Shown: one piece after another, positions 13,512-59,697 of the stretch
Numbering within the stretch: position 1 is the first letter of the stretch
How the letters are laid out: each line of letters begins with the position of its first letter
Source of the DNA: Pegea sp. RAD2-039
Lineage: Eukaryota > Chordata > Thaliacea > Salpida > Salpidae
Assembly: GCA_034620365.1 (NCBI GenBank)
Contig: JAQGEQ010000232.1
Coordinates: forward strand, 774,262-838,261
Direction: 5' to 3'
Length of the DNA: 64,000 nt
Translations under genes and position numbers: made by a program
The notes under the pieces: model-generated
The model's input: only the letters and a program-made list of their open reading frames with translations
Told to the model about the DNA's origin: nothing
Databases searched by the model: none

Positions 13512-14199
13512 AGCCCATTTATCCTCATCAACTTTGCCACTTATTATCTGTCTGACAAAATGCTAAAACCTTTCTTCCAGTGACGCTACTCCGAGGGACT
13601 ATTTTGGTCTATAAGCGGCTTTTCTGGTTTCAACAGTCCATCCATTATTTTTAAGTTTGTTACAGTAAAAAACATATGTACTTACTCGAATAGAATCTTA
13701 TTAAAATCTATACTAGGTATATCAAACTGAAACTATCTTAATTTTCGCTAAGCTTTAATTAAGTTAAGCCCCAACAACGCCAAAACAACTGGAAAAACTC
13801 GCCGAAGAAATAAATTTTAATAATTTGAATAAATTTTAATGATAATGACTTTATATTGAGCTTTATTCAAATTATTCAGGCAACTAACAATACTATACAC
13901 AAAACACCCTTTTACTGATTGGCAACGGTATATATGGGAGTAAGTTTTAACACATTTACGTCAGTGGCAAAATAATTTAATGGTATACCACTCTTGTGAG
14001 GTTCTTGCCGTTTTTTGGTTCAGTTTGATTTCTGACTAAAATGGCTCTTCTATTTTTGTTCGATGTTTCCTAATTTGTTGATATTGTAGTCTAACTGATA
14101 AAATAGATGAAGAAACTTAAAAAGATTCTATAACAAATGATTCATTATTATTCTATTAAAAAGATTCTATATTAAACTTTTGATGCTTGTATAAATAAA

Positions 14200-14310
14200 A
14201 GTATTTTGATTCTAATAACTTTCAAAATATGAAATATAAAACTTAAAATTGTATTTTTTAGGAAACTGATTGCTTAGAAACCATCTGGTGAGTTCAGTTT
14301 TGTTGATCTA
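14200..14310 (+). pseudogene. Relic of a micro-exon (cassette B type), copy 1
   Basis: The sequence tttttag then GAAACTGATTGCTTAGAAACCA (in two parts around 14262-14287) matches exon 11 of the micro-exon gene (28263-28310) with its upstream intron end and acceptor. The exon's 3' half is lost, and a gtgag follows at 14287. An identical relic is in unit 2 at 20062-20087. Confidence 0.65.
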
Positions 14311-15932: not shown

Positions 15933-16559
15933 ATGTTATCTTCTAGAATATTTGTACAAGACTACATTCTTTACAAAATTAGTAGTCAATTGAAAGATCA
16001 AAATATCTCAAATTCTCTCTTTCTACCTGAAGATAACACACATGAAGAGTTGAAGTTATCTGTGAGAAGGTTAGTTGACGAATATGAGAGAAGATATACA
16101 TCCAATTATACAGCCTTTTACGAATTCATTCAAACTATGACCATCCAAGACCTACCAACCACCTTACATCAGTTTGCACTTGCTATTTTCAGGCTAAAAC
16201 TCCTTTCGCCTAATGATAAGCGCTGTAGACGTTTGGTTTATGATGACAGCGAAGTCCATTGGTGTCATGTGTTTGGTTTTCTGATGCTTGCTGGTTCTTT
16301 TGCCATCAATGCAATTGAAACAAAAGCCCCTGAACAAGTTGAACTGATTATCGATTTGGTTTCACAATTTCTTGATAATCAATTAGGTAGCTGGGTTGAA
16401 AGAAATGGAGGCTGGGAAAAAATGCGTGATTATTCAGCTTTAAACCAAAGTTTATTGAAATATGGGTGTCCTGTCAATGCCTCAGCTCAGTCTTTCTTAC
16501 GTTATGGGTTAATAGCAGCATGTATTGGCTTATCAGCGATGATTATTGGTAGAAAATAG
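15933..16559 (+). CDS. BCL-2 family apoptosis regulator, multi-BH type (copy 1)
   Basis: One coding exon of 208 residues. BCL-2 proteins control mitochondrial outer-membrane permeability. A BH4-like start VQDYILYKISSQ lies at residues 8-19, a BH3-like helix with LVDEYERRY at 47-55, BH1 around 107-122 (VHWCHVFGFLMLAGSFA), BH2 at 154-164 (WVERNGGWEKM) and a hydrophobic anchor at 189-206 ending GRK. The presence of BH4, the order and a tail anchor point to a BCL-2/BCL-XL-like pro-survival protein. BH1 is unusual: the family's Asn-Trp-Gly-Arg is His-Trp-Cys-His here, so the Arg that usually contacts BH3 ligands is missing. An out-of-frame ATG sits 8 bases upstream. An AATAAA follows at 16567-16572. 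The start was chosen because BH4 lies directly after it. Confidence 0.92.
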   Translation: MLSSRIFVQDYILYKISSQLKDQNISNSLFLPEDNTHEELKLSVRRLVDEYERRYTSNYTAFYEFIQTMTIQDLPTTLHQFALAIFRLKLLSPNDKRCRRLVYDDSEVHWCHVFGFLMLAGSFAINAIETKAPEQVELIIDLVSQFLDNQLGSWVERNGGWEKMRDYSALNQSLLKYGCPVNASAQSFLRYGLIAACIGLSAMIIGRK

Positions 16560-16572
16560 TACTTTCAATAAA

Positions 16573-18539
16573 CGTTTTTCGTTATTATATAATAAAAATT
16601 CGTTTAAATTTGTGTTTATAAACAACTCAGTTTAATCTTTAAGTTTTCTAGATTCCTCATAACCACGTTGCTTCATAAACAGAATTATTAGATTGTTTAG
16701 TTTAAGATTGGACTCTTTCACTTTCATATCTTTATAAACTTTTAGATAATTTTTATTTTTATTCATCTTTACTTCCTCTAAATCACTTTTGGCAAACATT
16801 TAACATTTGTGAAGAAGTGTTAGTCACTTTTATAAACTTCAAAAACTTTAGATTAAGTTTAAATATTTTAATCTTATCATTATCTTCATTTATAAATCAA
16901 ATTGTCATAATTCAGTAGTATATTCAAATAAATTATTCAAGGATTTACTTTATAGTAGAATTACACTTAGAAATTTGGGCAAAATATCTTTTTAATGTCT
17001 CTAACAAGGTGACCACTAATCTTATAAGAAAAGGACACTTTTTCAACGTCCTTACTATTTTGAAATTTAATAAGACTTAAAATATTAGATATCAAAATTT
17101 CCAACTAATATCAACTTTGATAAAACTACTTTACAAAATAAAACTAAAATATTTATATTTACCGGAAACATAAACGGATTTAAAAGATAATTAATTATAT
17201 TCCAAAAACCATTTAGAGAATTATTAACCTTTATAAACTTTTCTCAAACCAAAGAAATATTTTGACCATTTTATATAAAGCAAGATAGAAAAATATATTA
17301 TTATAGGCACGAAGCGAAGTAAACTTTATCTTATTGACTATATTTTATTGCAAATATAACTTTTAAAAGATTTTCTACCAGTTTGTGTGTCGACGACATG
17401 TTAAGAACAACTGTTAATCACAACCGTCGCCTTGGAAGGTTTTCACTGGCTTTTTAAGACTTATTTCAAAATAACGTAAATGTTAGGAAGTTATCCAGTT
17501 AATCTATTAAAGTTGTTGGGCAATTATCACATTTAAATGATTTTCTAACTTTAATATTTATCTTAGATACAAGTTTATAAACCTTTAAACCATATTATTA
17601 GTAGAAGCTTATCTTTAGATTTTAAAACCGAAAACAAACAATAAATTTGTTTAAGACGAGCAAACTTAAATTATAAAACTAATTTTTGCCTTTCAGCAAT
17701 TATTGTATCAACAAATTTCAGCTATTTACTTTATTATTTGAACAAAAATCTCTACACTTCACTGAGATAATTTCAGATTATATGTATTCAACGCGTGGCT
17801 ACTTAACAGATCTTATAGCAAACAAAAACTAATGGTTATGAGCAAGAAGATAATTGAAAGGTAATAATAATTAAAAACTCATTTAGAAAGAACACTGCAA
17901 ATGCAGATAAAATTTATATGCAGATAAAATATAAATTATGAATCAAAAATTTGATATTACAAAATAGAAGGAGAAAATAAAGAAACTGATTATTCAAAGT
18001 TCAAACTTAATTAAAAGATAATGAATAGAGAATTTTAAGTATATAATATTCATTTATATATTATATTTATAATTCTACGATATTGTAATATAGAAACAAA
18101 CAAATTTATTTAATAGTTTTTTCTAAGCTGAGTAACATTAAATATAGAAAAACTTGTCTTTACAAACCAACTTTGCTCCTAGCAACACGCAACTAAACAC
18201 CTACTTTGATAGAATGGTGGACGCTTATTTATAAAACGTAGTCTTAGATGTTTAATAATATAAACTATCATAATTTAACCAAACACTTGCTCTGTGTATT
18301 TACTTACTAGTGTTTATGATTTTGAAATGGAAAAGTTATCAGCAGCCGTTTTTAGACGAGCTTTAATCTTATACCCACATAGCAAATGTTGATGAACTTC
18401 ATTTTTCCAATACATCTCATGTATTATTGATATATAGTATCATAGCAAAGAGCCTTAGAGGTAAAAGACTCACCGTCTGCGAACTGCTATTAACCGATGA
18501 CGCAGAAAATGTTGCACATCCACAAAAGATTCATTTAAT
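16573..18539. other. 3' flank of BCL-2 copy 1, no gene seen
   Basis: AT-rich sequence repeated almost exactly at 22373-24339. A block at about 18120-18320 recurs in diverged form at 34930-35130, downstream of the micro-exon gene. No coding exon was recognised. Confidence 0.5.
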
Positions 18540-18845
18540 TATTTATTACAATAAATGCGAAGGAGGATGCCTGAAATGAGCACCTCTCGCTAACACACAT
18601 TCTCACAAATAACATCTATTTATTCAAAAATATAGAAAGTAAAAGATGTAACACATGGTATTTCGATAGCACTCAAAGCATATAACAGTGAACAATTACA
18701 TGGAATGTTAATAATATAAAAAAGAAACACAGTTTTTGAAATGACAATGTTGACAATGTTATAACGGTTCAACTTCTGCTTGAACAACGCGAGCGACTTC
18801 GACTTGGCAATGTCTGATGGCAGCTGGTTCTATGTACTAATATTA
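18540..18845 (-). mobile_element. Non-LTR retrotransposon 3' fragment between the BCL-2 units
   Basis: Same element end and orientation as 11450-11760 and 24340-24725. It lies at the junction of the two duplicated units, the expected place for a recombined repeat after unequal crossing-over. Confidence 0.8.
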
Positions 18846-19066: not shown

Positions 19067-19309
19067 CTGTTTCTGTGTTCTGCTGCTGTGACACTTAAAA
19101 CCTAAATCCTTGGACAAACGTACCAAAGTACACCGAAAGTCTTCTAGAAATTGATTTGGCTTCTGACTCTCAGTTCTTAGTAGATGACAAACAAAAATTT
19201 TATTTGGTTTTTGTATATACAGCCGTCCCAGCGTCGCTTCAGCTTTTATATAAGTCTGACAGCTCTCAAATTGCTGGTACACTTCTGGGGCTGCGCAATC
19301 CACAAGCAC
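19067..19309 (-). pseudogene. Gypsy-like gag relic, copy 2 (truncated)
   Basis: This is the duplicate of 13269-13511 with a few substitutions. It loses the downstream zinc-knuckle part to the deletion at its end. The open frame continues into unrelated sequence at 19028. Confidence 0.65.
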
Positions 19310-19999
19310 AGCCCATTTATCCTCACCAACTTTGCCACTTATTATCTGTCTGACAAAATGCTAAAACCTTTCTTCCAGTGACGCTACTCCGAGGGACTAT
19401 TTTGGTCTATAAGCGGCTTTTCTGGTTTCAACAGTCCATCCCTTATTTTTAAGTTTGTTACAGTAAAAAATATATGTACTTACTCGAATAGAATCTTATT
19501 AAAATCTATACTCGGTATATCAAACTGAAACTATCTTAATTTTCGCTAAGCTTTAATTGAGTTAAGCCCCAACAACGCCAAAACAACTGGAAAAACTCGC
19601 CGAAGAAATAGATTTTAATAATTTGAATAAATTTTAATGATAATGACTTTATATTGAGCTTTATTCAAATTATTCAGGCAACTAACAATACTATACACAA
19701 AACACCCTTTTACTGATTGGCAACGGTATATATGGGAGTAATTTTTATCACATTTACGTCAGCGGCAAAATAATTTAATGGTATACCACTCTTGTGAGGT
19801 TCTTGCCGTTTTTTGGTTCAGTTTGATTTCTGACTAAAATGGCTCTTCTATTTTTGTTCGATGTTTCCTAATTTGTTGATATTGTAGTCTAACTGATAAA
19901 ATAGATGAAGAAACTTAAAAAGATTCTATAACAAATGATTCATTATTATTCTATTAAAAAGATTCTATATTAAACTTTTGATGCTTGTATAAATAAAAG

Positions 20000-20110
20000 T
20001 ATTTTGATTCTAATAACTTTCAAAATATGAAATATAAAACTTAAAATTGTATTTTTTAGGAAACTGATTGCTTAGAAACCATCTGGTGAGTTCAGTTTTG
20101 TTGATCTAAT
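20000..20110 (+). pseudogene. Relic of a micro-exon (cassette B type), copy 2
   Basis: Duplicate of 14200-14310 with the same truncated exon (20062-20087). It was therefore present before the segmental duplication. Confidence 0.6.
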
Positions 20111-21732
20111 TTTCAATCATCTTTTTAATAATTGATTAAAATTTAGATTTTAAGAAAAAAATATTATTTAAGATTATTGAAATTTTAAGGTTAATAACTA
20201 ACTACTATGTTTGTAGTAGTTAATACAAAAATAAAATTGCAAATTTAATCATAAGTTTAATTTCTGTGCTTTTAGATATAAACTTACTTGATTAAAACTT
20301 ATATATTTATTTTCTAACCCTAGATACGCAAGAAATCATAACACACGATTCTTCCTTCTCTTTCTCCGACCATTTTGTTGTTTGTCTTATAATTGAATTC
20401 TGCAAATCAATCCAATGGTGACATAATCTTCTTTAACTTTTAGAGTTAATTTTCCGAAGTGATTAAAACTTATCTAGCTTTTTTTAACTTGGAGTATTTG
20501 TAGTTTTTATTTTTTTAGTCGATTAATTCTTTTTAAATTAATTTTACATTTTGAAGTGGCCTTTGAAAGGTTTAATAATTAAAGTATTATGAATAATTAT
20601 TTGAATATTTATAATTTTGATTTATTTGAACATACAACTTTAAATTTTTTCTCGTATATAGCTTTTGTAGTTTATTTATTAAAAGTTTAATATTTCTTGT
20701 GTAATAGTTTGTAAACATATTTTTCTCGTGGTTATTTACTATAAAAAGATGGTATCTTTTATTTTCTTTAAACTTTTTAAACTTAATATTTGTAATTATA
20801 TTTATCAGAAAACTTTTTAAACATATTTAATTTCTCAATTACAATTTTTTTTTAATTGTTGCTTTAATTAATTTTTACTAATTAACCAAATTTTAATTAT
20901 AATCAATTTTTTATAAGATACTAAAATTATTTTTATTTGATTATTAATTAATTTTTTTCCATTTATTTGGAAATTGTTACTCTAAATTTTTTTTTTTTAA
21001 TATTAAATACTTTTTATATCAATAATTTTTGTATAAAATTTATTCTAATTATTTGTTTTTTATTGAAAGTTTTATATTTTGTCACTTTTTAGCTTCAGCT
21101 GTTGGTTGGTTTTGAAATAATCTTTTTGTAAAACTCTTTTTTTTTTTACAATTTGTTTGTTTTTTTAATTTTGAATGAATAAAATTATTAATTGTTTGCT
21201 TTATTGCTATTATTCAGGTTTTTATACAATTTTAGAAGAAAAAGCATCTTCAAACAAAAACAAGAAACCCTAAGAACGTTTTAGTTTTTCTGCATCTCAC
21301 TGTGTTTTGCTTTTTTTTTAACACCATGTCACATGGTCGCTATCGGCCGAATTAAGCCATTATTACTGTTGTTAGATAATTAGCCATTATTGATGTTATA
21401 TATAATAATGTTATATTGATAATTATTGATTTTGAAGTCTTTTTTTTAAATAAATTCATCTCATTTTAATCATGAATAGTTTTACTTCAGTTTTGAAAGA
21501 TTGTTTAATTTTGTTTTTATTCAATTATTTAAAGTTTGAATAATCAATTTAGATAAATTTTTATGTATCCCAATAATATTGTAATATCTCAATTAAACTA
21601 AGAAATATAATTAAACAAATATTTAAATGAAGATGTTAAAATTTTTAAACAAATAACTTCTGGTTTTGTTTTAAAATTATTTTAAACATTGAATCACATT
21701 CTAACATATAACTTTGCTTACAGAATGACAAA

Positions 21733-22359
21733 ATGTTATCTTCTAGAATATTTGTACAAGACTACATTCTTTACAAAATTAGTAGTCAATTGAAAGATCA
21801 AAATATCTCAAATTCTCTCTTTCTACCTGAAGATAACACACATGAAGAGTTGAAGTTATCTGTGAGAAGGTTAGTTGACGAATATGAGAGAAGATATACA
21901 TCCAATTATACAGCCTTTTACGAATTCATTCAAACTATGACCATCCAAGACCTACCAACCACCTTACATCAGTTTGCACTTGCTATTTTCAGGCTTAAAC
22001 TCCTTTTGCCTAATGATAAGCGCTGTAAACGTTTGGTTTATGATGACAGCGAAGTCCATTGGTGTCATGTGTTTGGTTTTCTGATGCTTGCTGGTTCTTT
22101 TGCCATCAATGCAATTGAAACAAAAGCCCCTGAACAAGTTGAACTTATTATCGATTTGGTTTCACAATTTCTTGATAATCAGTTAGGTAGCTGGGTTGAA
22201 AGAAATGGAGGCTGGGAAAAAATACGTGATTATTCAGCTTTAAACCAAAGTTTATTGAAATATGGGTGTCCTGTCAATGCCTCAGCTCAGTCTTTCTTAC
22301 GTTATGGGTTAATAGCAGCATGTATTGGCTTATCAGCGATGATTATTGGTAGAAAATAG
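21733..22359 (+). CDS. BCL-2 family apoptosis regulator, multi-BH type (copy 2)
   Basis: The 208-residue product differs from copy 1 at only three places that I see: Ser to Leu at residue 92, Arg to Lys at 99, and Met to Ile at 164 in BH2. All BH motifs, the unusual His-Trp-Cys-His of BH1 and the tail anchor are the same. Flanks, the upstream out-of-frame ATG, the acceptor before the start and the AATAAA (22367-22372) are duplicated too. Both copies are open and would be expressed from duplicated regulatory sequence if the unit includes the promoter. As in copy 1, the role (guarding the mitochondrial membrane, binding BH3 proteins) is from the family. Confidence 0.92.
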   Translation: MLSSRIFVQDYILYKISSQLKDQNISNSLFLPEDNTHEELKLSVRRLVDEYERRYTSNYTAFYEFIQTMTIQDLPTTLHQFALAIFRLKLLLPNDKRCKRLVYDDSEVHWCHVFGFLMLAGSFAINAIETKAPEQVELIIDLVSQFLDNQLGSWVERNGGWEKIRDYSALNQSLLKYGCPVNASAQSFLRYGLIAACIGLSAMIIGRK

Positions 22360-24339
22360 TACTTTCAATAAACGTTTTTCGTTATTATATAATAAAAATT
22401 CGTTTAAATTTGTGTTTATAAACAACTCAGTTTAATCTTTAAGTTTTCTAGATTCCTCATAACCACGTTGCTTCATAAACAGAATTATTAGATTGTTTAG
22501 TTTAAGATTGGACTCTTTCACTTTCATATCTTTATAAACTTTTAGATAATTTTTATTTTTATTCATCTTTACTTCCTCTAAATCACTTTTGGCAAACATT
22601 TAACATTTGTGAAGAAGTGTTAGTCACTTTTATAGACTTCAAAAACTTTAGATTAAGTTTAAATATTTTAATCTTATCATTATCTTCATTTATAAATCAA
22701 ATTATCATAATTCAGTAGTATATTCAAATAAATTATTCAAGGATTTACTTTATAGTAGAATTACACTTAGAAATTTGGGCAAAATATCTTTTTAATGTCT
22801 CTAACAAGGTGACCACTAATCTTATAAGAAAAGGACACTTTTTCAACGTCCTTACTATTTTGAAATTTAATAAGACTTAAAATATTAGATATCAAAATTT
22901 CCAACTAATATCAACTTTGATAAAAATACTTTACAAAATAAAACTAAAATACTTGTATTTACCGGAAACATAAACGGATATAAAAGATAATTAATTATAT
23001 TCCAAAAACCATTTAGAGAATTATTAACCTTTATAAACTTTTCTCAAACCAAAGAAATATTTTGACCATTTTATATAAAGCAAGATAGAAAAATATATTA
23101 TTATAGGCACAAAGCGAAGTAAACTTTATCTTATTGACTATATTTTATTGCAAATATAACTTTTAAAAGATTTTCTACCAGTTTGTGTGTCGACGACATG
23201 TTAAGAACAACTGTTAATCACAACCGTTGCCTTGGAAGGTTTTCACTGGCTTTTTAAGACTTATTTCAAAATAACGTAAATGTTAGGAAGTTATCCAGTT
23301 AATCTATTAAAGTTGTTGGGCAATTATCACATTTAAATGATTTTCTAACTTTAATATTTATCTTAGATACAAGTTTATAAACCTTTAAAATATAAAATTA
23401 GTAAAAGCTTATCTTTATATTTTAAAACCGAAAACAAACAATAAATTTGTTAAGGACGAGCAAACTTAAATTATAAAACTAATTTTTGCCTTTCAGCAAT
23501 TATTGTATCAACAAATTTCAGCTATTTACTTTATTATTTGAACAAAAATCTCTACACTTCACTGAGATAATTTCAGATTATATGTATTCAACGCGTGGCT
23601 ACTTAACAGATCTTATAGCAAACAAAAACTAATGGTTATGAGCAAGAAGATAATTGAAAGGTAATAATAATTAAAAACTCATTTAGAAAGAACACTGCAA
23701 ATGCAGATAAAATTTATATGCAGATAAAATATAAATCATGAATCAAAAATTTGATATTACAAAATAGAAGAAGAAAATAAAAAAACTGATTATTCAAAGT
23801 TCAAATTTAATTAAAAGATAATGAATAGAGAATTTTAAGTATATAATATTCATTTATATATTATATTTATAATTCTACGATATTGTAATATAGAAACAAA
23901 CAAATTTATTTAATAGTTTTTTCTAAGCTGAGTAACATTAAATATAGAAAAACTTGTCTTTACAAACCAACTTTGCTCCTAGCAACACGCAACTAAACAC
24001 CTACTTTGATAGAATGGTGGACGCTTATTTATAAAACGTAGTCTTAGATGTTTAATAATATAAACTATCATAATTTAACCAAACACTTGCTCTGTGTATT
24101 TACTTACTAGTGTTTATGATTTTGAAATGGAAAAGTTATCAGCAGCCGTTTTTAGACGAGCTTTAATCTTATACCCACATAGCAAATGTTGATGAACTTC
24201 ATTTTTCCAATACATCTCATGTATTATTGATATATAGTATCATAGCAAAGAGCCTTAGAGGTAAAAGACTCACCGTTTGCGAACTGCTATTAACTGATGA
24301 CGCAGAAAATGTTGCACATCCACAAAAGATTCATTTAAT

Positions 24340-24725
24340 TATTTATTACAATAAATGTGAAGGAGGATGCCTGAAATGAGCACCTCTCGCTAACACACAT
24401 TCTCACAAATAGCATCTATTTGGTCAAAAATATAGAAAGCAAAAGATGTAACACATGGCATTTCGATAGCACTCAAAGCATATAACAGTGAATAATTACA
24501 TGGAATGTTAATAATATAAAAAAGGAAAAAATCGCATTTTAGAAATGACAATGTTGGCAATATTATAACGGTTCAACTTTTGCTTGAACAACGCGAGTGA
24601 TTCTGAGATGACAATGTCTGATGGCAGCTGGTTCCAAGTACTAATTGTGCGGTATGAGAAATAATTCACTATGATTAACGTACCAGCTGATATGGGCTTA
24701 TTAAGATGTATAGATGTTGGACCGA
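24340..24725 (-). mobile_element. Non-LTR retrotransposon 3' fragment at right edge of BCL-2 duplication
   Basis: This is the longest RT piece of the three boundary copies. The - strand encodes HLNKPISAGTL and then FSYRTISTWNQLPSDIV, and a Ser-Leu-Ala-Leu-Phe-Lys-Gln-Lys-Leu-Asn run, diagnostic of the C-terminal end of CR1/L2/Jockey-type RTs. It lacks the 'ttctatgtactaatattagtagt' continuation of the two left copies, so it marks the true right end of the duplicated unit. Confidence 0.8.
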
Positions 24726-25852: not shown

Positions 25853-28800
25853 ATGGATAAGCGACTAGACATACTTAGTAAGTATTTTTCAATCTATTAC
25901 TTTCTTTTTTAACCTAGTAATAAATCATAAATAACATTAACACTTTGTAGTTCATATTTAAATGTTATTATTTTGATATTAGATCATACTATGGAAGTTC
26001 ACTTATATGAAGTGAATCACCTACATTTAAACGATATCTATTTTCAACTGGTAAGTAAATAAAATTGTTAACTTTATTAATATCACTTTCAAATAACTAT
26101 TCTAAAATTGATAACAAGCATGCTTTGTTTAAATTAACTAATTTCTTATGTTTCAGCCAAAATTAGTATTGTTTGAAATAACAATGTTTGGTAAGTTTAC
26201 TTTTGTTTTAAATGATTAGATTTTAAATTAAATGCCTTAATGCAACTGATAAACAGTTTTTAAAACTACATTTTTATTTAAAGGTAATTTTGAACAAACG
26301 AAATTTAAAGGTTAGAGAATTAATTAATTGATTGTAACCTCATCTATTAACATATAAAAAATTTTAGGTACAATTCAACAAAATGTTTTTAACCTGCAGC
26401 AGTGGAAATGTTTGTTGGTAAATTGATTTATTTCAATTATTATGTTAAAAACACCTAATAATTTATCCAATTTTTACTTTTTCAAGTTTATTTAATTATA
26501 TTTGATTCAATAATCCTATGAATAAATTCTTTTTTAATTTTAAGATTCTGTTAATAAGTAAAAATAACTTATGATTTTATTTTTAGTTGGAATACATGAA
26601 GCACCTAAGTAAGTGTAGCAGACAAAATGTTTGTTCTAAAAATAATAATTTTAATCTGATTTTTCTGAAACTTGTTACTTTATGGTCATAGTTTTGTAAA
26701 TATTTTCAATTAAAAAGTAGAACTTTAAGTTTTAATACAAAATTAAAAGATGGTGCTCTCTTAAGGCACCTTCCTTCACATTTATTGTAATAAATAAATA
26801 AATAAATGAAAATATTTTCAGCTGTTAACAAAGTTGTTGTTGGAGATATTGTTGAAAATGCTATAGACTATACAGTGAGTTAAATAAACATTTTCTTTAC
26901 TGATAACACTTGCTTGTCTTTTGTAGTAGTTTTAAGACTGATTTGTATATAGATTTTTAGTATTTTATCAGAAAGTATTTGATTCATCCTTATTCATACT
27001 TAATGCAAATTAATAAATGATAACAGTTGACTAAATAAGTGATTACAGTTTTTGTTTAACTCTATTTCTTGTAGGAAACCTCATCAATTGTTGAAGTTAT
27101 TGAAGAAGAAAACGAAATGGTAAATTTTAACCGTTGATATAAAATATGTACATTATAAAACTATTTGTTTATTTTTTTAACTATATAAAAGATTAATTAT
27201 TCATCTTTGCTAAATCAATAATGGTCATATTGAAATAAAATCAGCTTAAAATCAAAAATTTGTTGAGCTTTCAATACTTTTACAACAAAATAATTTAAGT
27301 AGAAGTAAAATATGTAAAACTGGGAAATATTTTTCAGTTGACTGATTTGGAAGATGGTGATGATGATTTGAAACCTTCCAGCGTGAGTTTCTGTTTCTTC
27401 TAGATTCAGTTTGTCCGTGATTCTAATTTAAAAGTTTTTATCCGTTTGTTAAATTGATTGTAATAATGTTTGTGAAACAAATTTAACTTCTTTTGCTGCT
27501 TCACTTGCATTTGTATAATTTGAGTATCATTCGCTTTTATTCTATAAAATACTAATTATTCGAGCTTTTCATAGACTAAACAATTGTAACAATTATACAG
27601 AGACACAAAATATAAAACTCAAATACACTCAAATAAAATATATCACAGTTATACAAAAAATCAGTTTTCTTTCTAGCTATGATGTGTTAACGAAAAACAT
27701 ATCTTAAGTTTAGATTACTTTAAATTAAGGTTCAATGTCAGTATTTTATTTAAGGTGGTTTTCCGATTCCAGCGTTAGTTTAAATTGTTTAAACTATTAG
27801 TTTTAAAGTTATGTTTAAGCTACTAAAAAAATTTGAAACTGAAGGTTGTAGTTTAAAGTCAACAAGATTGTAATCAAATTAATTATTTTACAAAACAAAA
27901 TTGTAATTTATTATTTTGATAAATGATAAAACTTGAAAATACTTTAATTAAACCACTAACTTATTCCAAAAAAGTAGTAAAAAATATTTGAGCAGTTTTA
28001 AAATGGTTTTCAATACATATTTTCTTTAGTTATTAGAGTTACTCAAGGAATGTGACAGTGACAGCTCTTCAATCTCCTCATGGGTTAGTTTCTGTGATTA
28101 ATTTATCATCACCCATTTTGTTTATTAAATCTTATATATACTTTTTGTTTCTAAGAACTTTTTTCAAGTTATGATAGCTGAATTAAATACTTGGTTTTGT
28201 ATAAAAATATCAAAATTTTTTTGCTACTTTCAAAAGATAAAACATAAAATTGTATTTTTTAGGAAACCGATTGCTCAGAAACCAACAATAATTTGGTGAA
28301 CCATGTTTTGGTAAATATTAATTTGATCCTAAACTTAATTTAATTTGTTTTTAATGTAAATTTGTCTTATTAAAACTTACTGAAAATATTTATTTATGAT
28401 TTTAGATTGAAAACGATGAAATGAAAAGCAAAGTCACAGCGATAATTTCAGAACCTAATACAGTTAGTGAAAAATTACCATTTCTATTTGTTTCTTAGAT
28501 CTAAAAACTAAAATATTGTAAATTTTAATGCTAAAAATGTTATTAAAATAATTATTACAGATCTAAATACAAGTTACTGATTTAATTTTTCTGTAATTTT
28601 ATTGATAATATAGAAGATAAACTTATAGAAACTGATTTGATTGCTTTCAGACACAGAGCAAACCATTTTAGCTTCTTTTCAAGAACTCACTAGATTGTCA
28701 TTATCATACTACAGATTATTTAATATTTCATTCATTAATAGTTTAGAAATAAAAAATGTATGATTTAACTTCAATTCATTTTTAATTTAATTAAAATAAT

Positions 28801-31800
28801 TTTCATTTTTATTAACATTTGATATAAAATAGAATATAATTTAAAATTTAATTGCTTGTATCTCTGTTGCTATTTTTTTTGATATTTGTACTATATTAAA
28901 ATAAAAACATATTAATTTTTATTTCATTTTTTTCAGGAACAAAGCATAGGTGATAATAGCAATATTCAAAATGTTGAAAGCAAACCAGTTAGTTTTGATT
29001 TAATGTTGATATTACAATGGTTTTACTTCACAAGTTTTTTTTGATTTAAATATAAATTCTCTGTAATATTACTGAACAAAATTAAAGTAATAAATTTGTT
29101 ATAACTACTTTAGAAATGTTTTATAAATTACGTTTTCAAAACAAAATAAATATTATTTTTGCTCTCAACTTTATTTAAATTTCAATCATTTTTTTCAGGA
29201 TCAAAATATCCCATATGAAGAACCTAAGAATATAAATGTTGAAAGCAAACCGGTAAGTTTGGTTTCGTTTATCAGTTACAAATTTGTAACTTTTTAGAAA
29301 TTATTGATAACAAGTTAATGTTTATATAAAAATGAGTCTTCTCAATTATAAATTTAAGTTGTTCAATGCAGGAAACAGCTTTCGAGATTTTCAAGAGAAA
29401 TTTGTTGAGAATAAGAGCTGTAAGTAAAAACTTATACGTGATTTTGAATATAACGTAAAAAATTTAAAGCAATTATTTTCTATCTCTCCATAAACTTTTA
29501 AAATCTCTGAATTTCATTTTAATGAATTTAAATTCTTTTTTTATAGTCATGAATTACGTTAAATAAAGTAAATTTAACTATTTTACATAGACAAAATTAA
29601 ATCTTATAACTTGAAAAATGATAAACTTGAAAATACCTTATTCAAACCATTAACTTATTACAGAAAAGTATTAAAGTAAATTTGAACAATTTTCATATAG
29701 TTTTTAACAAATTCTTTCTTTAGGAACAAAAAGCTAAAAAGGAAAGTCAAAGTGACAGGAGTTCAATCTCCTCATTGGTTAGTTTCTGTGATTAATTTAT
29801 CATCAGTCGTTTTGTTTATAAATTCTGATATATAGTTTTTGTTAGTCACAACTTTGGTTCAAGTTATATAAATTAGATTAAATAATTGTTGTTTTCATGA
29901 ATTGATCAAATATTTTTTTCTTTTTGCTAATTTATAAGAAAAATAACTCTAAAAAAATATGTGTAAGTTAACACTAATACCTGATGTTAAATAGAACATA
30001 AAAATGTAAAGCAATTAATTTCTGACTCTCAATAAAATTTATTACGTCTGAATTTTGTTTTAATGAATTTAAAATCATTTTTTTAGTCACGAATTAAGTT
30101 AAATAAAATCAAATTAACTACTTTACAAAAACAAAATTAAATCTTATAATTTGAAAAATGATAAAACATAAAAATACTTTATTGAAACAACTAACTTATT
30201 ACAGTAAACTAGTAAAATAAATTTGAATAATTTTCATATAGTTTTTAACAAATATTTTCTTTAGGAATCAAATGCTAGCAAGAAAAGTCAAAGTGACATC
30301 TGGTCAATCTTCTCATTGGTTAGTTTCTGTGATTAATTTATCATCAGTCATTTTGCTTATTAATTCTTAAAAAGGGTTTTTTTTAGTTATAACTATATTT
30401 CAGGTTAAATAAATTTAACTAGATAATAGTTGTTTCCATGAAAACATCAAATAAGTTGTTTTTGTTACTTTCAAATATTAAAAGATAAACTTGTCTTTTT
30501 TAGAAAGCCGATAGCGAAGAAACCAGCAATAATTTGGTGAATCCAGTTTTGGTAAGTACTGATTTGATTCTAAACCTAATTTCCTTTATCTTAAATATAA
30601 ATTTGCCTTATTAAAACTTACTGAAAATATTTATTTATGATTTTAGATTGAAAACGATAAAATGAAAAGCAAAGTCACTGCGATAATTTCAGAACCGGAT
30701 ACAGTTAGTGAAAATTGATTATTTCTTTTTGTTCTTTAGACCAAAACCAAAATTATTGTAAATTTTAATAATAAAATTTATTTAGAGTTAGCTATTAAGG
30801 ATCTAAATACAAGTTACTGATGTAATTTTTCATTAAATTTATTTATAATATAGAAGATAATCTTATAGAAACTGGTTTAATAGCTTTCAGACAAAGAGTA
30901 AAACCATTTTAGTTTCGTTTCAAAAACTTACTAGATTGTCATTATCATACAATAGAATATTAAATTTTTCATTCAATTAAAAGTTTAGAAATAATTTATT
31001 GATTTTAAACTTTTTGATTTAGCTTCAGTTTGTTGTTAAATTAATCAAACTAATTTTCATTTTCCTTTAAAGTTTTGACATAAAAGAAAACATAACGTAA
31101 TAATTATTTGTTTTTATCTCTGTTGCAGATTTATTTGCTGTTTTTACTATATTAAAATTATAACTGATTAATTATTATTTTATTTTTTAAGAAACATGGT
31201 ATAGATGATAATAACAATATTCAAAATGTTGAAAGCAAACCAGTTAGTTGTGATTTAGTGTTGATATTATAATATTTTTACTTCACAAGTTTTTTTTATT
31301 TAAATATTAATTTTCTGTAATATTTTTATAAAAAAAATTAAACTAATAAAATTATTGTCACTACATTAGACAACTTTTATAAATTACGACTTCAACATAA
31401 AATCAATCTTATTTTTTCTCTCAATTTCATTTAAATGTTAATCATTTTTTTCAGGATCAAAATATCCCAGATGAAGAACCTAAGAATATAAATGTTGAAA
31501 GCAAACCGGTAAGTTTGGTTATTCAGCTTTTCTTTGTCAGTTACATAAATGACTCTTTATAATTATTATTGACAAGTTATTGTTTGTATCAAAATTTGAT
31601 GCTTCTCAGGATAAATTGTAAATTTAAGTTGTTCAATGCAAGAAAACGTATTTTGAGCTTATAAAAAGATAACTCGAAAAAGTTATCTGTAAATTAACAC
31701 TAAAATATTATGTTAAATATAACGTACAAAATTTACAGTAATTATTTTCTACCTCTCTATAAACGATTAATTTCTCTGATTTTAGTTTTAATGGAGTTTA

Positions 31801-33492
31801 AATCATTCTTTTAGTCATGAATTAAGTTAAATAAAATCAAATTAACTAGCTTACAAAAACAAAATTAAATTGTATAACATTAAAAAGAAAAAAAAATAGA
31901 AAACACCTTTTTAAAACTACGAACGATTTTCATAATAATAGTAGAATAAATTTGAACAGTTTTCTTACAGTTTTTAACAAATATTTTCCTTAGAAATCAA
32001 ATGCTATCAAGAGATGTGACAGTGACAAGTGTTCAATCTCCTCATTGGTTAGTTTTTGTTATTATTTCATCATCAGCCATTTTGTTTATTAATTATTGTA
32101 TATAGTTTTTGTTAGTCATAATTTTACTTCAAGTTATATAAATTTGATTAAATAATAGTTATCTTCAGGAGAAAAATAAACAATTTTTTAACATTTACAA
32201 CTTTCAAAAGATAAAAGATAACATTTTTTTGTAGAAAACCGATTGCGGAGAAACCAGCAATAATTTGGTGAATCCAGTTTTGGTAAATAATAATTTGATC
32301 TTAAACCTAATTTATTTTGTTTTAAATTTAATTTTGCCTTCTTAAAACTTACTTCGAATATTTGTTTTGATTTTAGATTGAAAACGATGAAATAAAAAGC
32401 AAAGTCACTTCGATAATTTCAGAACCTGATACAGTTAGTGAAAATGATTGTTTCTATTTGTTGTTCTATTTAAAAATATATTTTCCTGTTTTTTTAAACA
32501 GGTTTAATATAAAAAAATTATTAATGAAAATTTAGTTATTTGTACTATATTAAATCAAAGTTGATTAATTAGTTCTTTATTTTTTCAGAAACAAAGCATA
32601 GTTGATAATAGCAATATTCAAAATTTTGAAAGCAAACCAGTTAGTTGTGATTTAATGTTGATATTATAATGGTTTTATTTGAAAAGTTTTTTTCTGATTT
32701 AAATAATAATTCTGTTCAATATTTCTGTGAAAATATTTCACTAATAAGATTATTGTCACTACCTTAGACAAATTTTTTAAACTACAACTTAAATATAGAA
32801 TTAATATTGTATTTGCACTTAACTTCATTTGAGCCTTAATTATTTTATTCAGGATCAAAATATCCCAGATAAAGAACCTAAGAATATAAATGTCCAAAAC
32901 AAACCGGTAAGTTTGATTTCGTTTATCAGTTACATATATCATGGTTTATAATTATTATTAATAAGTTGGTGTTTATAGTGAAAAGGATTATCTTGAATTA
33001 AATTGTAAAATTAAGTTGTTCAATGCAGAAAAACAAGGTTGAAACTAGGAAGAAAGATGCCATTAAAAAATTATCTGTAAGTTAAGACGAATACCTGATG
33101 CTAACTATAAATTAAATAATATTGAAGCAATTAATTTCTGTTTAACAAAATTTTAATTTCTCTGAATTTTATTTTATTAAAATAAGAATCTTTAATTCTA
33201 TAAAATGAATTAAGTAAAATATTAAATTTAAAAACAATTTGCAGAAGAAGAAGAGATTTAGAAATCTTTTGATTCGAGTTTTTACTTGTGGATGCGTAAG
33301 AAAATGTAAATTGAAAGTTTATCTTTTATTTGATTTAATTATTTTATTTCTTATTAATTTGAAAAATTTGCTTTGTGATATAATTTAGCAATATAAAAAA
33401 CATTCTATAATCTATTTGCTTTTATCATTTAATTTTAATTGAAAAAAAAACTTTTGTTTATTTATTTTATTTTTCATTTTCAGAAGCTGTAG
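25853..33492 (+). CDS. Micro-exon gene: 29 exons, repeated symmetric exon cassettes
   Basis: Exons: 25853-25877, 25983-26050, 26157-26190, 26284-26310, 26368-26417, 26587-26608, 26822-26874, 27075-27119, 27338-27382, 28030-28083, 28263-28310, 28406-28462, 28937-28987, 29199-29252, 29372-29419, 29724-29777, 30265-30318, 30504-30551, 30647-30703, 31192-31242, 31455-31508, 31994-32047, 32235-32282, 32377-32433, 32589-32639, 32853-32906, 33029-33076, 33245-33295 and 33484-33492. Together 1,371 nt, 456 residues plus stop, frame kept at every junction. Exons 8-28 are all phase 0-0 and 45-57 nt long. From exon 10 a six-exon set (A 54, B 48, C 57, D 51, E 54, F 48) repeats three times, with one extra A (exon 16 or 17). 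The product is acidic then basic, Ser/Asn/Glu-rich, probably disordered, and ends in Cys-Gly-Cys. No signal peptide, membrane helix or known domain. It resembles flatworm micro-exon genes in structure, not sequence. Confidence 0.85.
26748..26810 (+). mobile_element. Non-LTR retrotransposon 3' end inside intron 6 of the micro-exon gene
   Basis: Family 3' mark (gtgctctcttaaggcacctt then ccttcacatttattg) with an (aata)n tail ending only about 11 bases before the acceptor of exon 7. It is in the sense direction of the gene. Confidence 0.75.
28030..33076 (+). repeat. Tandem exon-cassette duplication (A-B-C-D-E-F sets)
   Basis: Set 1 covers exons 10-15 (28030-29419). Exon 16 (29724-29777) is an A exon left from a set reduced by deletion. 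Set 3 covers exons 17-21 plus a dead F (30265-31688), and set 4 exons 22-27 (31994-33076). Units are about 1.7 kb. Each cassette position keeps its own length and its own donor type (A, C and D use gttagt; E and F use gtaagt). Introns are clearly related but more diverged and carry indels. Confidence 0.85.
31643..31688 (+). pseudogene. Dead cassette-F exon in intron 21
   Basis: It lies where set 3 should have its F exon, between caatgcaag and gtaag marks identical to those of exons 15 and 27. Its length is 46 rather than 48 and it has an in-frame TAA, so including it would end the protein. Confidence 0.75.
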
Positions 33493-34313: not shown

Positions 34314-34385
34314 CTCCCCGTCGGGGAATCGAACCCCGGTCTCCCGCGTGACAGGCGGGGATACTCACCACTATACTAACGAGGA
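34314..34385 (-). tRNA. tRNA-Asp (anticodon GTC)
   Basis: 72 nt, no intron. The 7-bp acceptor stem pairs fully with one G-T wobble. The D-arm contains TAGTATAGTGGTGAGTA, the anticodon loop is CTGTCAC with GTC, and the T-arm is GGGGTTCGATTCCCC. Internal A and B boxes for RNA polymerase III match animal tRNA-Asp closely. A tttatttt run just beyond the 3' end is a Pol III terminator. The CCA is not encoded, as usual in eukaryotes. Confidence 0.97.
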
Positions 34386-36294: not shown

Positions 36295-37629
36295 TCACTT
36301 TTGCATTGATGTTTCAATCAACTTGCAGACATAATTATTTTGAAAAGAGGAAAACAACTTTATGAATATGTTTGTGGCTGTTTTCAAAATTAATTGCATC
36401 TTTTGACAGTCTAAAAGCTCTTCACAAATTTTATTTATATAAAGTAATTCGTCCGACAGGTTACCATATTTACTGCCCCACATTTCATCGTTATTGTCTT
36501 CTTTATATTCTATGTCATTCATAAAAAATTTCCTTTTCTTTGAAAGATCTTTTTTAATATTATTTAGCTGATCAGACAAATTAAAACTTGTATAGACTTC
36601 TGGACATACGTACAGACCAGCTTGGAGGCGCTTAGATTCTTTTCTTATCTTTAAAAACTTTAGATGACAAGATAACTCTGTAATTAAATTAAAACTAAAC
36701 AGAACAACTACAATTGAATCAATAAAAGAAAGTTTAACGAAATTTCCTTTAACTCCTTGTAAATTTGTTTCTAAGTTATTTGAAGCAATTGTTTGCCCAA
36801 AAACATGGTACTGTCCAGCTATCGAAGATTGAATGAAAAACGTCACATCGCAGGAGCTTACAAATGCAATAACTCTCATTAAATGTCGGTTATACTTTAA
36901 TAAACTAGTGAGGTCTCTACAAAGCAGAAGAGTACACGAGCTCACAAGTGAGTAATGAAAGACATCCAAAAATGATAAATATTCTCGAAACTTGTGATTA
37001 TTGGTGGTTGTTGACAGCTTCACATTGTTAGATCTACCAGATAGCAAAGACAATCTGTTTATCAAATCATTAAGTTTTTTGGTTTGTTTGAAGAGTTTAG
37101 TTCGGTTCATATTGCTGAATACATCCAAGATCTGTACTATAAAAAATGAAAACGCGGATAATTTGCATTTCATTATGGTTTTAGTTGGTTCGAGTTTTTC
37201 AGTAATCAACAGACAATGTTTCAATAATTCTAAAGCAACAAAATGGCTTTCTACAGATATGTTCTTTTTGAAAGAAAACTTTGTTCCAATTTCAAAGAAT
37301 ATTCTCAGTATAGTAAAATCGCGTGAGTTATCGTTAGCTTTAAAACCTTTCAATTTGTAAAGTTTTACTGATCCACTTTCTTTGTATGTCCAGTAAACGA
37401 ATCCTGCTGATAAAATATTACCTTTCACAAGGAAGTCAGAAAAACAATCAAATCCATCAACAGAAATATCTTTATCTTGGTACTTTGAGTGAAGTTCTAT
37501 AAGCTCATTTCCTGCCGGGCTTGTAAAAATGTAATCAAATAGACTACCTTGCAAAATGAAAGACGTTTTTCCTCCAACGTCTAAAACTTTCACACATTCA
37601 TAATATTTATTCATTTCAAAATTGTTCAT
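36295..37629 (-). CDS. Unrecognised 444-residue protein with hydrophobic segments
   Basis: A single uninterrupted frame, which is unusual in this intron-rich window. I do not recognise the family. Residues 1-100 are mixed and polar with an Asp-Val-Gly-Gly turn. Hydrophobic stretches lie at about 157-171, 226-238, 253-270 and 302-317, the last followed by a basic run (Lys-Ile-Arg-Lys-Glu-Ser-Lys-Arg). The C-terminal 100 residues are charged and helical. The layout of the middle part loosely recalls PEX11-type peroxisomal membrane proteins, but no signature is convincing and I do not assign it. A decayed paralogue at 40433-41600 preserves the middle region best, so the protein was real and duplicated. 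A second ATG at residue 6 is an alternative start. Confidence 0.7.
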   Translation of the reverse strand: MNNFEMNKYYECVKVLDVGGKTSFILQGSLFDYIFTSPAGNELIELHSKYQDKDISVDGFDCFSDFLVKGNILSAGFVYWTYKESGSVKLYKLKGFKANDNSRDFTILRIFFEIGTKFSFKKNISVESHFVALELLKHCLLITEKLEPTKTIMKCKLSAFSFFIVQILDVFSNMNRTKLFKQTKKLNDLINRLSLLSGRSNNVKLSTTTNNHKFREYLSFLDVFHYSLVSSCTLLLCRDLTSLLKYNRHLMRVIAFVSSCDVTFFIQSSIAGQYHVFGQTIASNNLETNLQGVKGNFVKLSFIDSIVVVLFSFNLITELSCHLKFLKIRKESKRLQAGLYVCPEVYTSFNLSDQLNNIKKDLSKKRKFFMNDIEYKEDNNDEMWGSKYGNLSDELLYINKICEELLDCQKMQLILKTATNIFIKLFSSFQNNYVCKLIETSMQK

Positions 37630-39388
37630 TATCTTGCTGATTAATCAACAAAATCAGGAGCTGCTAAAAATAAGGCTGTAGTTAAATTATTTATTAGAAA
37701 AAGGTAGCATCACTCAGTACATTTACTAATCACAAAATGTTCTGAGAATGTTTTACTTACAACTTACACCAGGCATTCAGATTTAATTTCTACTAAGAAG
37801 CAGTTGAACCTTCATCAACTTAAATTCTAATTCAAACATATGAAATCACTTCAAATAACTAAAACATATTTAGTACTAAGCTAGCAAACAAATGTTTAAG
37901 TAAAAACTATAACTTTCCACATAAGAAAAGTCTTTAACACATATAACCTCATGTTCGGGTTGTTCATATATTTATAGTCTTGCAAATTTAAACCAATTCA
38001 ACCGAAATAAAATCATTGAAAACAGACTTGTTACTTATTCAATCAGTTTGTTCAAACTGTAATCATTTCAATATTATATGTTCAGTTTAAGAACTGATAA
38101 GGAGACAGTTTTATTATTAATAATTTTGTAAAATCATATAAAGTGATTTCTTTGCTTTTTCTGTTTATATAAATTGATATTTTACTGATATTACAGAAAG
38201 CCATATGACTATGCTTATATTTTGCACAAAGTTAAAAATAATTTCCTTAAAGTTGTAAACATTTCCTTCAGCTTTTTGAATATATGTCTCTTTACTTTCC
38301 GCTAGACGCTTAGAGCAGGATACGACTTTAACAGCTTTTTAAATACATGTCTTTCTGCTAGAAGCAATAAAAACAAACATACTGGTGATCACGAAATACA
38401 AAATTTGCATATTAGAAACATCTTTTAATGGTCTTATATTGAGCTTCTGAAAGATTTGAAAGATTAAGAAATCTGTTTAATAACTCTTCATTTTATTTTG
38501 CTTCTTAAAATAAATGTAGTTTCAAGTCAGTTTGCTCTAAATATAAATGAAATTTCTTTAGACTAACAATAAAATATAATTGATAAATGTCTAATAATTT
38601 AGTCAAAATGCTTTTTGTAATATCACAAGACTTACAAGTTTAAATAAAAGTATTAGACGTTTATTTATGATTGAAGTTGTTTTCTTAAAGTATTTAGACA
38701 ATAATGAATATATTGCTGTAGGGGTTTCAAGTCTTTTGTTGCTGATAGTGAAATAAAGATAAGTGTATTTGTCTCGTGGAGGCAGGTGGTAGTTAGATTT
38801 ACTCATTATTAGGCTCACTTCAAGTCTGGAGAGTCTTACAACCTCTGTAAAGCAAGATGTTATTACCTGCAACGCCGACTCAATATATCCTACAAAGGCG
38901 TCATTGCCGAGATGATGTTTTGTTAACTAAGGTAGTAAGTTAAAAATAGAGTTTTAATTATTTAACTTTCAAATTGATGGCTAATGTTGCAGTAATTGTT
39001 TCAAATTAATAATATTATAGTAATTATTTTCAGTCTTATATGTTAGCTAGAGGTTGTCAAAACCTGTCACAATACTAAAGAATTAAAAAAATTCACTGAC
39101 CTCATAACTTAACTGTTCCATTAACAATGATCATAACAAAATTAAACTGATTTAAATCAATTTTGATGGTAACTACAAAATACGTTGCATAGTTCTAAAG
39201 AGCAATTCAAACCTCTAAAGGGCATGTTATAGAAGAACTCTTTAATATCCGGTAAAAGTTTTTCTAAAAACCATTTGACAACTAAGATGCAATCACTTTT
39301 GCTCTAATTATTTCACTATAAAAGGCTTGAAACTAGCTTCCTCATAAACTTCCTTAATATTTATTATTACAGGCGCGTTATATACTCA
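37630..39388. other. Intergenic, no gene seen
   Basis: AT-rich. A 60-90-codon frame at 38603-38872 (- strand) has no exon-like neighbours or recognisable motif. A GC-richer patch at 38800-38920 may be an old retroelement piece but could not be assigned. Confidence 0.35.
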
Positions 39389-40432: not shown

Positions 40433-41600
40433 TTAAACGAAGAATGAAACTATTTTTGTGATTGAAATGGATTTCATTTTTTGACAGTCTAAAACACTTT
40501 TACAAATTATATTTATAGTAAGTAATTCATCGTACAGGCTCTCATATCTACTAACAAACATTTCAGCTTTCTTGTTTTCTTTATTTTTTATATTACTCAA
40601 AAAATATTTTATTTTCTCTGAAAATTCAGATTCAATTTTGCTAGGTTGGCTAAAAATTTGAAACTTGTATAAACTTCTTGACACAGGTACGTATTAGTTG
40701 GGAGCCGTATAGATTGCTCTTTTATTTTGAAAACTTCAAATGGCAAGCTAACGATATCAACAAAATAAAACTAAACAAAACAGCTGCAAGTGAATTGTTT
40801 AAAAATACTTCAGCAAATCTTGGATTTTGTTTGGCTCCTTGTAAGTTTATTTGAAGGCTATATAAAGCAAATATTTGCCCAAAAACATATAAGTGTCCTG
40901 CTATTGAAGATTTAATGAAGAACATCAAACCGCATAAGCATACAAATGCATTTATTCTCAATATGTCTCGGTTATACTCGAAACCAATAGAATTGTAATC
41001 AAATAGATCTTCAGTTGACTCAAGTGAGGAATGAAAGACATCCAAAAATGATAAATATTCTTGAAACTTGTGATTAATGGTGTTTGTTGATAGTTTAACT
41101 TCTTTAGTTCTACCAGATAGCAAAGACAATCTGGTGATCAAATCATTAATTTTTTTGGTTTGTTTGCAGAGTTTAGTTTCGTACATATTGCCGAATACAT
41201 CCAAGATCTGTACTATAAAAAATGAAAACGCGGATAATTTGTATTTCATTATGGTTTTAGTTGGTTTGAATTTTTCAGCAATCAACAGACAACGTTTTAA
41301 TAATTCTAAAGCAAAAAATGGCTTTTTAAAGATTTGTTCTTTTTCAAAGAAAACTTGGTTCCAATTTGAAAGAATATTCTAAGTATAGTAAAATCGCGTG
41401 ACTAACTCTTCGCTATAAAATCTTTCAGTTTGTAAACTTTTACTAATCCACTTTCTTTGCATGTCCAGTAAATGAATCCTGCTGACAAAATATTATCTTT
41501 CACAAGTGAATCAGAAAAACAATCAAATCCATCAACAGAAATTTATTTATCTTGGTACTTAGAGTGAAGTTCTATAAGTTCATTTCCTGCCTGAGTGTAA
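40433..41600 (-). pseudogene. Decayed paralogue of the 444-residue gene
   Basis: On the - strand it aligns with codons about 35-420 of the gene at 36295-37629. The best-kept part is 41285-40722 (ILDVFGNMYETKLCKQTKK, LSLLSGR, EYLSFLDVFHSS, SSIAG). Frameshifts near 40700 and 41300, a lost codon block and several stops break the frame, and the first 34 codons are absent. Both the nucleotide and protein similarity are obvious by eye. Confidence 0.85.
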
Positions 41601-59603: not shown

Positions 59604-59697
59604 AAATTTAATAATTAACTTCTAAACCTACATCTTTTGCTTTATCATCATAAAATTTCAACTTATCGTTTTTATTACCATATTTCTATTAGTGTAG

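Follow-up and report, generated by a model that had tools for sequence, protein, structure and literature searches.

The window, by which we mean the whole 64,000-nucleotide stretch analysed here, holds a member of a gene family that is a real coding micro-exon family, with a design best known from parasitic flatworms. With moderate confidence, we regard this family as multi-copy and apparently narrowly distributed, its products joining a constant head to a basic tail through a disordered linker that varies by cassette and probably also by exon skipping.

The gene lies on the forward strand, from an ATG at 25853 to a TAG stop at 33492. Exact joining of the exons bore out the 29-exon model of the initial annotation, since all 28 introns have GT..AG ends and the joined exons form a single open frame of 456 codons plus the stop, encoding a protein of 51.9 kDa. 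The constant head (exons 1-7, 25853..26874, about 93 residues in mixed phases) consists of exons at 25853-25877, 25983-26050, 26157-26190, 26284-26310, 26368-26417, 26587-26608 and 26822-26874; because their lengths are 25, 68, 34, 27, 50, 22 and 53 nt, exon 4 (27 nt) is the only symmetric one among them. The same joining verified that the 21 exons that follow (8-28) are all 45-57 nt long, divisible by three and in phase 0 at both ends. They start with two acidic symmetric exons (27075..27382; exon 8, 27075-27119; exon 9, 27338-27382), and their slot order, e8 e9 / A B C D E F / A / A B C D E / A B C D E F / e28 e29, agrees with the tandem copying of an A-F cassette that had been proposed. Cassette 1 (exons 10-15, 28030..29419) comprises A (28030-28083), B (28263-28310), C (28406-28462), D (28937-28987), E (29199-29252) and F (29372-29419), and cassette 2 is exon 16, an A alone (29724..29777). 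Cassette 3 (exons 17-21, 30265..31508) contains A (30265-30318), B (30504-30551), C (30647-30703), D (31192-31242) and E (31455-31508), and the full set returns in cassette 4 (exons 22-27, 31994..33076) with A (31994-32047), B (32235-32282), C (32377-32433), D (32589-32639), E (32853-32906) and F (33029-33076). The constant tail (33245..33492) is made of exon 28 (33245-33295), with the peptide KKKRFRNLLIRVFTCGC, and the coding part of exon 29 (33484-33492), which adds KL and the stop. Two dead F exons also lie on the forward strand, at coordinates derived from exon spacings and backed by alignments: the one in intron 16 (29915-29962) has lost its acceptor in 11 of 11 aligned copies, and the one in intron 21 (31641-31688) has a shifted acceptor, changed likewise in 11 of 11, together with an in-frame stop in the window copy. 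A tRNA-Asp on the reverse strand (34314..34385) is found 0.8 kb downstream of the gene; DNA similarity to many gene copies extends to it, and in the copy C165b continues through it. The window has a GC content of about 27%, and the assembly measures 105.7 Mb.

The genome contains at least 23 places matching exon 2 and at least 27 matching exon 28. The list of whole copies, for which 23 of 875 candidates were scored, is likewise a lower bound. These copies, partly arranged as inverted pairs on short contigs, carry introns and are therefore not retrocopies, an origin that was considered and rejected. Of 20 copies that were aligned with the window, 18 include the head, and two, C159b and C191, lack this 5' part. 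Variants do exist at the level of the genome, where complete paralogs hold from 7 to 21 small exons. The order A to F is preserved in the copies scanned, the C171/C31 class having B C B D E F; in this class B directly before D is a genomic state, and by comparison with C171a, c, e and f, one B and one C are absent from C171b and C171d. Cassette gain, cassette loss and exon death thus diversify the family in the genome. Most slots retain their identity between subfamilies, and sequence comparison places most cassette slots before the split from the C26 copies.

That the exon pattern is more than chance was indicated by a scan for stretches with AG..GT flanks, an open frame and similarity to an exon family, which returned 21 matches on the forward strand of the gene and none on the reverse, none in each of 20 shuffles and none on either strand of six other 7.65-kb stretches of the window. 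Since the peptides of the scan come from the same gene family, divergence between paralogs is a fair test. An alignment of the window gene with 10 copies, picked because they share its exon pattern and have a full head while others were omitted, showed variable columns in 138 of 1374 exon positions (10.0%) against 984 of 6214 intron positions (15.8%; P = 1.6e-8), while of 77 indel types 2 touch exons and 75 fall in introns (P = 5.7e-5). An equal divergence of exons and introns, which the initial annotation had named as the result that would count against it, was therefore absent. In ten of these eleven copies the frame is intact and each of the 56 splice dinucleotides is retained; the remaining one, C87, is a pseudogene in which exon 3 carries a frameshift and exon 8 has a GC donor. 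Minus-strand copies, aligned in their proper orientation, show the full pattern as well. On a wider scale, the frame is open in 20 of the 21 copies joined from the start to exon 28, and in the window's class no stop appears among about 134 coding changes, against 7.1% expected. The dN/dS ratio is 0.56 in the window's class, which points to weak constraint over much of the protein, and 0.27 in the C171/C31 class; for exons 1-6 it is 0.24-0.60 between subfamilies, and exons 28-29 give 0.20. Selection acts on the coding exons and on the splice sites. The opposite reading, a decaying and non-functional amplified segment in which splice-like open exons linger from a recent origin, could draw on the high copy number with its partly inverted pairs on short contigs, on the ratio of 0.56, on the C87 pseudogene and on the two headless copies, but it is contradicted by the contrast between exons and introns, which holds in two subfamilies for substitutions and indels and in the window's class for stops and splice sites, and by a relative whose intronless contigs share the layout at 43% identity. 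We consider it extremely unlikely.

The relatives in question, P0001 (369 aa, contig of 1230 nt) and P0002 (350 aa, contig of 1173 nt), were the only ones returned by protein searches, and no viral contigs were found for the family. Both begin at a methionine matching the start of the window gene and show, at 43% identity, the same head, tail, exon types and layout. Their contigs differ by 57 nt, or 19 residues, the size of one C exon, P0002 lacking one C alone with the adjoining B retained. Single exons are probably skipped in frame in the mRNA, as this pair suggests together with the donors of the window gene, which on pairing with U1 give -1.6 kcal/mol for C (ACA/GTTAGT) and -1.4 for D (CCA/GTTAGT), compared with -8.8 for E. 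The weak GTTAGT donor is not family-wide, given that the C exon of C171a and C31b has a GTAAGT donor. Symmetry of the exons by itself is no proof of skipping, because tandem exon duplication needs it as well, and a constitutively spliced repeat-exon gene would keep symmetry only for frame-safe duplication, include every intact exon and owe its diversity to the gain and loss of cassettes among paralogs, much as exons of fibrillar collagen or titin PEVK do. In support of such a gene, paralogs differ in exon number, C171b and C171d are without one B and one C, dead exons are present in introns, and P0001 and P0002, which show three further residue differences in the pair of exons that follows the missing C, may be two paralogs or alleles. 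Nevertheless, P0002 lacks C alone, its contig being shorter by exactly 57 nt, whereas C171b and C171d lost B together with C, and in the window gene exons C and D have very weak donors, so that constitutive splicing seems to us rather unlikely, though far from negligible. Of the earlier proposal that any exon could be skipped or reordered without changing the frame, skipping is probable, but ordinary cis-splicing does not reorder exons. Free combining of the exons finds no support either, because the scanned copies hold to the order A to F and most slots keep their identity.

A further layer of variation concerns exon A, for which 31.3 nonsynonymous and 0.7 synonymous differences are fixed between slots, as against 8 and 13 among 10 copies (Fisher p 2.8e-6), the exons being conserved within slots. 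This McDonald-Kreitman-like test was built on paralogs, with a spanning tree and averaged codon paths, and gave no significant result for B, C, D, E or F, each tested alone. Next to the divergence of introns, the A slots show few synonymous differences from one another, and exonic splicing constraint may therefore inflate the contrast. The A exons probably diverged by positive selection after duplication and were then fixed for slot-specific roles.

The absence of a recognisable family, asserted from the start, was upheld by Pfam, PDB and protein searches. In Pfam, the 456-aa protein gave no family above the curated cut-off, a profile of six members of A1 reached a best E of 0.046, below acceptance, and four heads reached 0.042 with 13.4 bits, where the cut-off is 25. 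An F-box suspected in the head by eye from an LP...W pattern was rejected, as Pfam showed no such domain. The PDB sequence search found no match for the A1 profile, and for the C171a head it returned 12 rows of protease/pol chains, mostly named HIV-1 protease (E 0.011 to 1.6). Given those E values and a start at chain residue 31 or later, which we take to be past the active site, this likeness was dismissed as chance. An AlphaFold model of P0001 with P0002 was unusable (pLDDT 28), and the head has no recognised fold. By hydropathy only, the N-terminus is not hydrophobic (highest 19-residue value in the first 40 residues, 0.69), in keeping with the lack of a visible signal peptide noted at first, and the charge-hydropathy plot places the middle on the disordered side, as its composition had suggested. 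The last 34 residues form a basic, amphipathic tail with a net charge of +11 and a helical moment of up to 0.71.

Altogether, every complete gene encodes a head (exons 1-7) and a tail (exons 28-29) that are constant, and a polar middle assembled from phase-0 exons, mostly of 45-57 nt, in the order A-B-C-D-E-F. These features suggest a protein that, lacking a signal peptide, would stay in the cell, and whose middle would be a disordered linker. The exons included would set the length, charge and short motifs of the linker, while the tail might bind a membrane or a partner and the head a second partner. Diversity arises first in the genome, where cassettes are gained and lost and exons die, and probably also by in-frame skipping of single exons, with probable positive selection on A copies after duplication followed by slot-specific fixation. 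More tentatively, we propose as a possibility an origin of the tandem micro-exon design independent of parasitic flatworms, in an intracellular family of more than 20 paralogs with a membrane-binding tail, a splice-programmable linker and A exons selected apart. The same exon logic, found with no secretion signal and in a probably free-living host, would mean that the design could arise without parasitism, and more than 20 natural paralogs with differing cassette sets offer a test bed for slot gain, loss and specialisation.

The host is probably not a parasitic flatworm. A match to PF03142, a family not known from flatworms, occurs in the genome, although 4 out of 14 controls from bacteria and archaea matched it too. 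PEX3 gave a modest match (E 4e-4; with its neighbours, 41.2 bits), which argues against Neodermata, eight examined genomes of which are without peroxins according to PMC4690255. The assembly size and the GC content of the window would suit the monogonont rotifers described in PMC11954553. Neither a COX1 match in the assembly nor a bdelloid spliced leader was found, and searches of the literature by title or start of abstract retrieved no rotifer micro-exon genes, which does not prove their absence from print.

Among known systems, the mate recognition protein family of Brachionus, mmr-b, is likewise repeat-built and lineage-restricted, and would also share a rotifer origin if the present host were one, but its members have a signal peptide and 87-92 codon repeats, and the genes compared in PMC2746195 are without introns, while the window gene has 28 introns, exons of 45-57 nt and no signal peptide. 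The mmr-b primer site was absent from the genome when searched with up to 3 mismatches, and on these grounds identity with mmr-b was rejected. Fibrillar collagen, titin PEVK and elastin also have runs of short same-phase exons that can be duplicated or skipped to give chains of variable length; the family described here differs from them in its heterogeneous A-F cassette, its more than 20 gene copies and the lack of a Pfam or PDB sequence match. Rice micro-exon genes share the name and exons of 51 nt or less, but that survey, judging by its abstract, covers genes containing micro-exons (PMC6600660). The closest likeness is to the micro-exon genes (MEGs) of schistosomes and tapeworms, with a coding region of mostly short symmetric exons, possible in-frame skipping, clustered multi-copy families and fast-evolving, often disordered products. 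According to published accounts, MEGs appear restricted to platyhelminths (PMC4350168), the design is a proposed gain of parasitic flatworms, perhaps older (PMC4398949), and other organisms have micro-exon genes to a lesser extent (PMC4015677). A true member of this class, in a host related to MEG-bearing animals, would be in line with the multiple copies, with skipping if it occurs, and with the structural rule used for tapeworms (PMC7653826). That rule asks for 7 or more exons, half or more of which are shorter than 70 nt and divisible by three, with 4 or more such exons in a row; here 22 of the 29 are of this kind, 21 of them consecutive. We hold membership to be very unlikely, as no relative was found beyond P0001 and P0002, the PEX3 match speaks against such a host, and the hydropathy gives no sign of the signal peptide carried by all MEG products, secreted or membrane-anchored, according to PMC4350168, or by most of them according to PMC4015677. 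In addition, the definition in PMC4671649 places central micro-exons under 36 bp between two long flanking exons, whereas the small exons here measure 45-57 nt and the flanking ones, counting coding parts only and excluding UTRs, 25 nt (first) and 9 nt (last). The window family is set apart from MEGs by its longer exons, its constant multi-exon head and basic tail, its fixed A-F order and a product of 51.9 kDa instead of about 10 kDa.

The 29-exon structure proposed in the initial annotation agrees at every coordinate checked. The gene runs on the plus strand from a start at 25853 to a stop at 33492, its 28 introns (57-647 nt) are GT-AG throughout, and its product would be a protein of 456 residues (51.9 kDa, computed pI 5.0). 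Exons 1-7, the head, have mixed phases, and single skips there break the frame, exon 4 excepted, whereas exons 8-28 are each 45-57 nt long and phase 0-0 throughout. Six cassette exon types (A to F) and the single exons e8, e9, e28 and e29 follow each other in the order e8 e9, A-B-C-D-E-F, A, A-B-C-D-E, A-B-C-D-E-F, e28, e29. Introns 16 and 21 each retain an extra, dead F exon in every one of the 11 aligned copies, which suggests that the array began as four cassette rounds. The donors of the window gene differ widely in their pairing with U1, which is very weak for C (ACA/GTTAGT, -1.6) and D (CCA/GTTAGT, -1.4), strong for E (-8.8), and takes other values for B (-5.3 or -8.6), A (-4.7 or -5.9), F (-4.9) and exons 1-7 (-5.1 to -8.6).

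A micro-exon gene family was confirmed in the assembly (105.7 Mb, 387 contigs), where the window, with a GC content of ~27%, forms the end of contig C35. The DNA search, whose copy list is a lower bound, found copies at about 94% identity on C159, C253, C90, C165, C70, C87 and C272, and more diverged ones on C26 (81-84%), C191 (about 81%) and C171 (73-83%, apart from a short piece with a higher value); C31 likewise carries family copies. Exon 2 matched at 23 places in the genome and exon 28 at 27. In a first scan of 24 stretches (the window plus 23 copies), 11 carried the complete set of 21 small exons; C159b is one of these, although it is headless. C87 has 20, C26a and C26b 18 each, and C70a and C272c 16 each, while C159c (14), C165a (16), C70d (16), C191 (7) and C31a (3) are incomplete, either truncated where a contig or locus ends or missing parts that were lost. 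C171a, C171b and C31b showed 8, 6 and 8, or 9, 7 and 9 once paralog peptides were included in the scan, and four other C171 copies 9, 7, 8 and 9. The frame is open from the start to exon 28 in 20 of the 21 joined copies (C171d was scanned, but is not among them). Exon 1 is followed by a GC donor in C26a and C26b, and exon C by a GTAAGT donor in C171a and C31b.

The family is under selection. An alignment of 11 copies from the window's class shows variation at 138 of 1374 columns in exons, compared with 984 of 6214 in introns. Two indel types affect exons, a 3-nt change and a frameshift in C87, whereas introns have 75, of which 10 are divisible by three. Frame and all 56 splice dinucleotides are intact in 10 of these copies; in two of the ten (C253 and C272a) there is no stop where the window gene has one, and the frame continues for a few codons. 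Pooled over these ten, dN is 0.0252, dS 0.0446 and intron distance 0.0515, with no stop among ~134 coding changes and a nonsynonymous to synonymous ratio of 93.5 to 40.5, against an expectation of 56.1 to 17.0 derived from the intron spectrum. The resulting dN/dS of 0.56 overall (0.65 in exons 1-7, 0.57 in exons 8-27, 0.20 in exons 28-29) indicates weak constraint across much of the protein. In the five copies of the C171/C31 class dN/dS is 0.27, variable columns number 51 of 726 in exons against 355 of 3136 in introns, and exons are affected by a single indel type, which keeps the frame, compared with 31 types in introns (P 0.022). The only splice-site failure there is the e8 donor of C171e, a loss that an in-frame skip would tolerate.

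Cassettes of the window gene differ by 2-19% in B-E exons, 13-24% in introns, 19-35% in A exons and 52% in F exons, and dN pooled over the cassette comparisons is higher than dS (0.207 against 0.118), mostly from A and F. Trees built from A and E exons plus their flanks join slots of the window's class to the corresponding C26 slots, so the slot duplications predate the split between both; B1 and B3 of C26, as well as A3 of C26b, depart from this slot matching. For the A exons, 31.3 nonsynonymous to 0.7 synonymous differences are fixed between slots, compared with 8 to 13 varying among 10 copies (p 2.8e-6). The same test gave p 3e-4 for all exon types combined, and nothing significant for B, C, D, E or F singly in those 10 copies. 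Subject to the caveats of this test (paralogs, spanning tree, averaged codon paths, and exonic splicing constraint that may inflate the contrast), we read the A exons as having diversified and then come under constraint.

A search of 5.77 billion proteins, with 7994 word-sharing candidates scored, returned two relatives, P0001 (369 residues, 1230-nt contig) and P0002 (350 residues, 1173-nt contig). The same pair came up when 7991 candidates were compared by alignment and when the head was searched alone (6 candidates); distant relatives without a common 5-residue word would escape notice. Both contigs, whose source label reads jgi, are too short to hold introns and are therefore most likely cDNA of a relative. 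Compared by eye with the window exons, P0001 reads head, B C B C D E, A B C D, A B D E F, e28 and then a short end piece; e8 and e9 are absent. P0002 has the same layout minus one C, whose size equals the 57-nt difference between the contigs, and three residues also differ in the two exons that directly follow the missing C. This comparison supports exon skipping, without proving it.

On the charge-hydropathy plot the head falls on the folded side of the line and the middle (net -28) on the disordered side, while the tail is basic and amphipathic; domain searches of the family recognised no domain. A tether or scaffold would fit this layout, with a linker determined by splicing and by the cassettes a gene contains; the proposed partners, attachment to a membrane and location are inferences.

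Judging from their positions, copies on C159, C90, C165, C272 and C70 form tail-to-tail pairs (two of them on C70) with a spacing of 4.5-5.4 kb, and the C26 copies stand head to head. The inverted arms on C165 match at 94.6% across 5.6 kb, and the tail-to-tail pairs may be likened to ampliconic palindromes. The spacer of the C165 pair holds DNA related to a 449-aa ORF of the window (36295-37644, minus strand; no family above cut-off), which has a partial second copy at 40722-41378 (minus strand). A tRNA-Asp adjoins the window copy. Elsewhere in the window, a 5.6-kb tandem duplication (13272-18841 and 19070-24645, 98.3% identity) carries one near-identical ORF per copy (15912-16559 and 21712-22359), the first matching the Bcl-2 family, which marks the host as an animal. 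An inverted duplication of about 93-95% (44688-48095 and 60691-63997), bordered by 8.8 tandem copies of a 113-nt unit (59695-60691), holds C2H2 zinc-finger ORFs and others with a sub-threshold homeodomain score. The ORF at 51575-52027 (minus strand) contains a 15-nt minisatellite (51650-51815) encoding TTQPP-like repeats, and its extensin-like score is under the cut-off.

Regarding known systems, neither the bdelloid spliced leader nor a primer site of mmr-b, the Brachionus mate recognition protein family, was found in the genome. A modest PEX3 match (E 4e-4) contrasts with the eight neodermatan genomes of PMC4690255, where peroxins were looked for without success. The window family is a MEG, the micro-exon gene class of flatworms, under one published structural rule, but not by its product.
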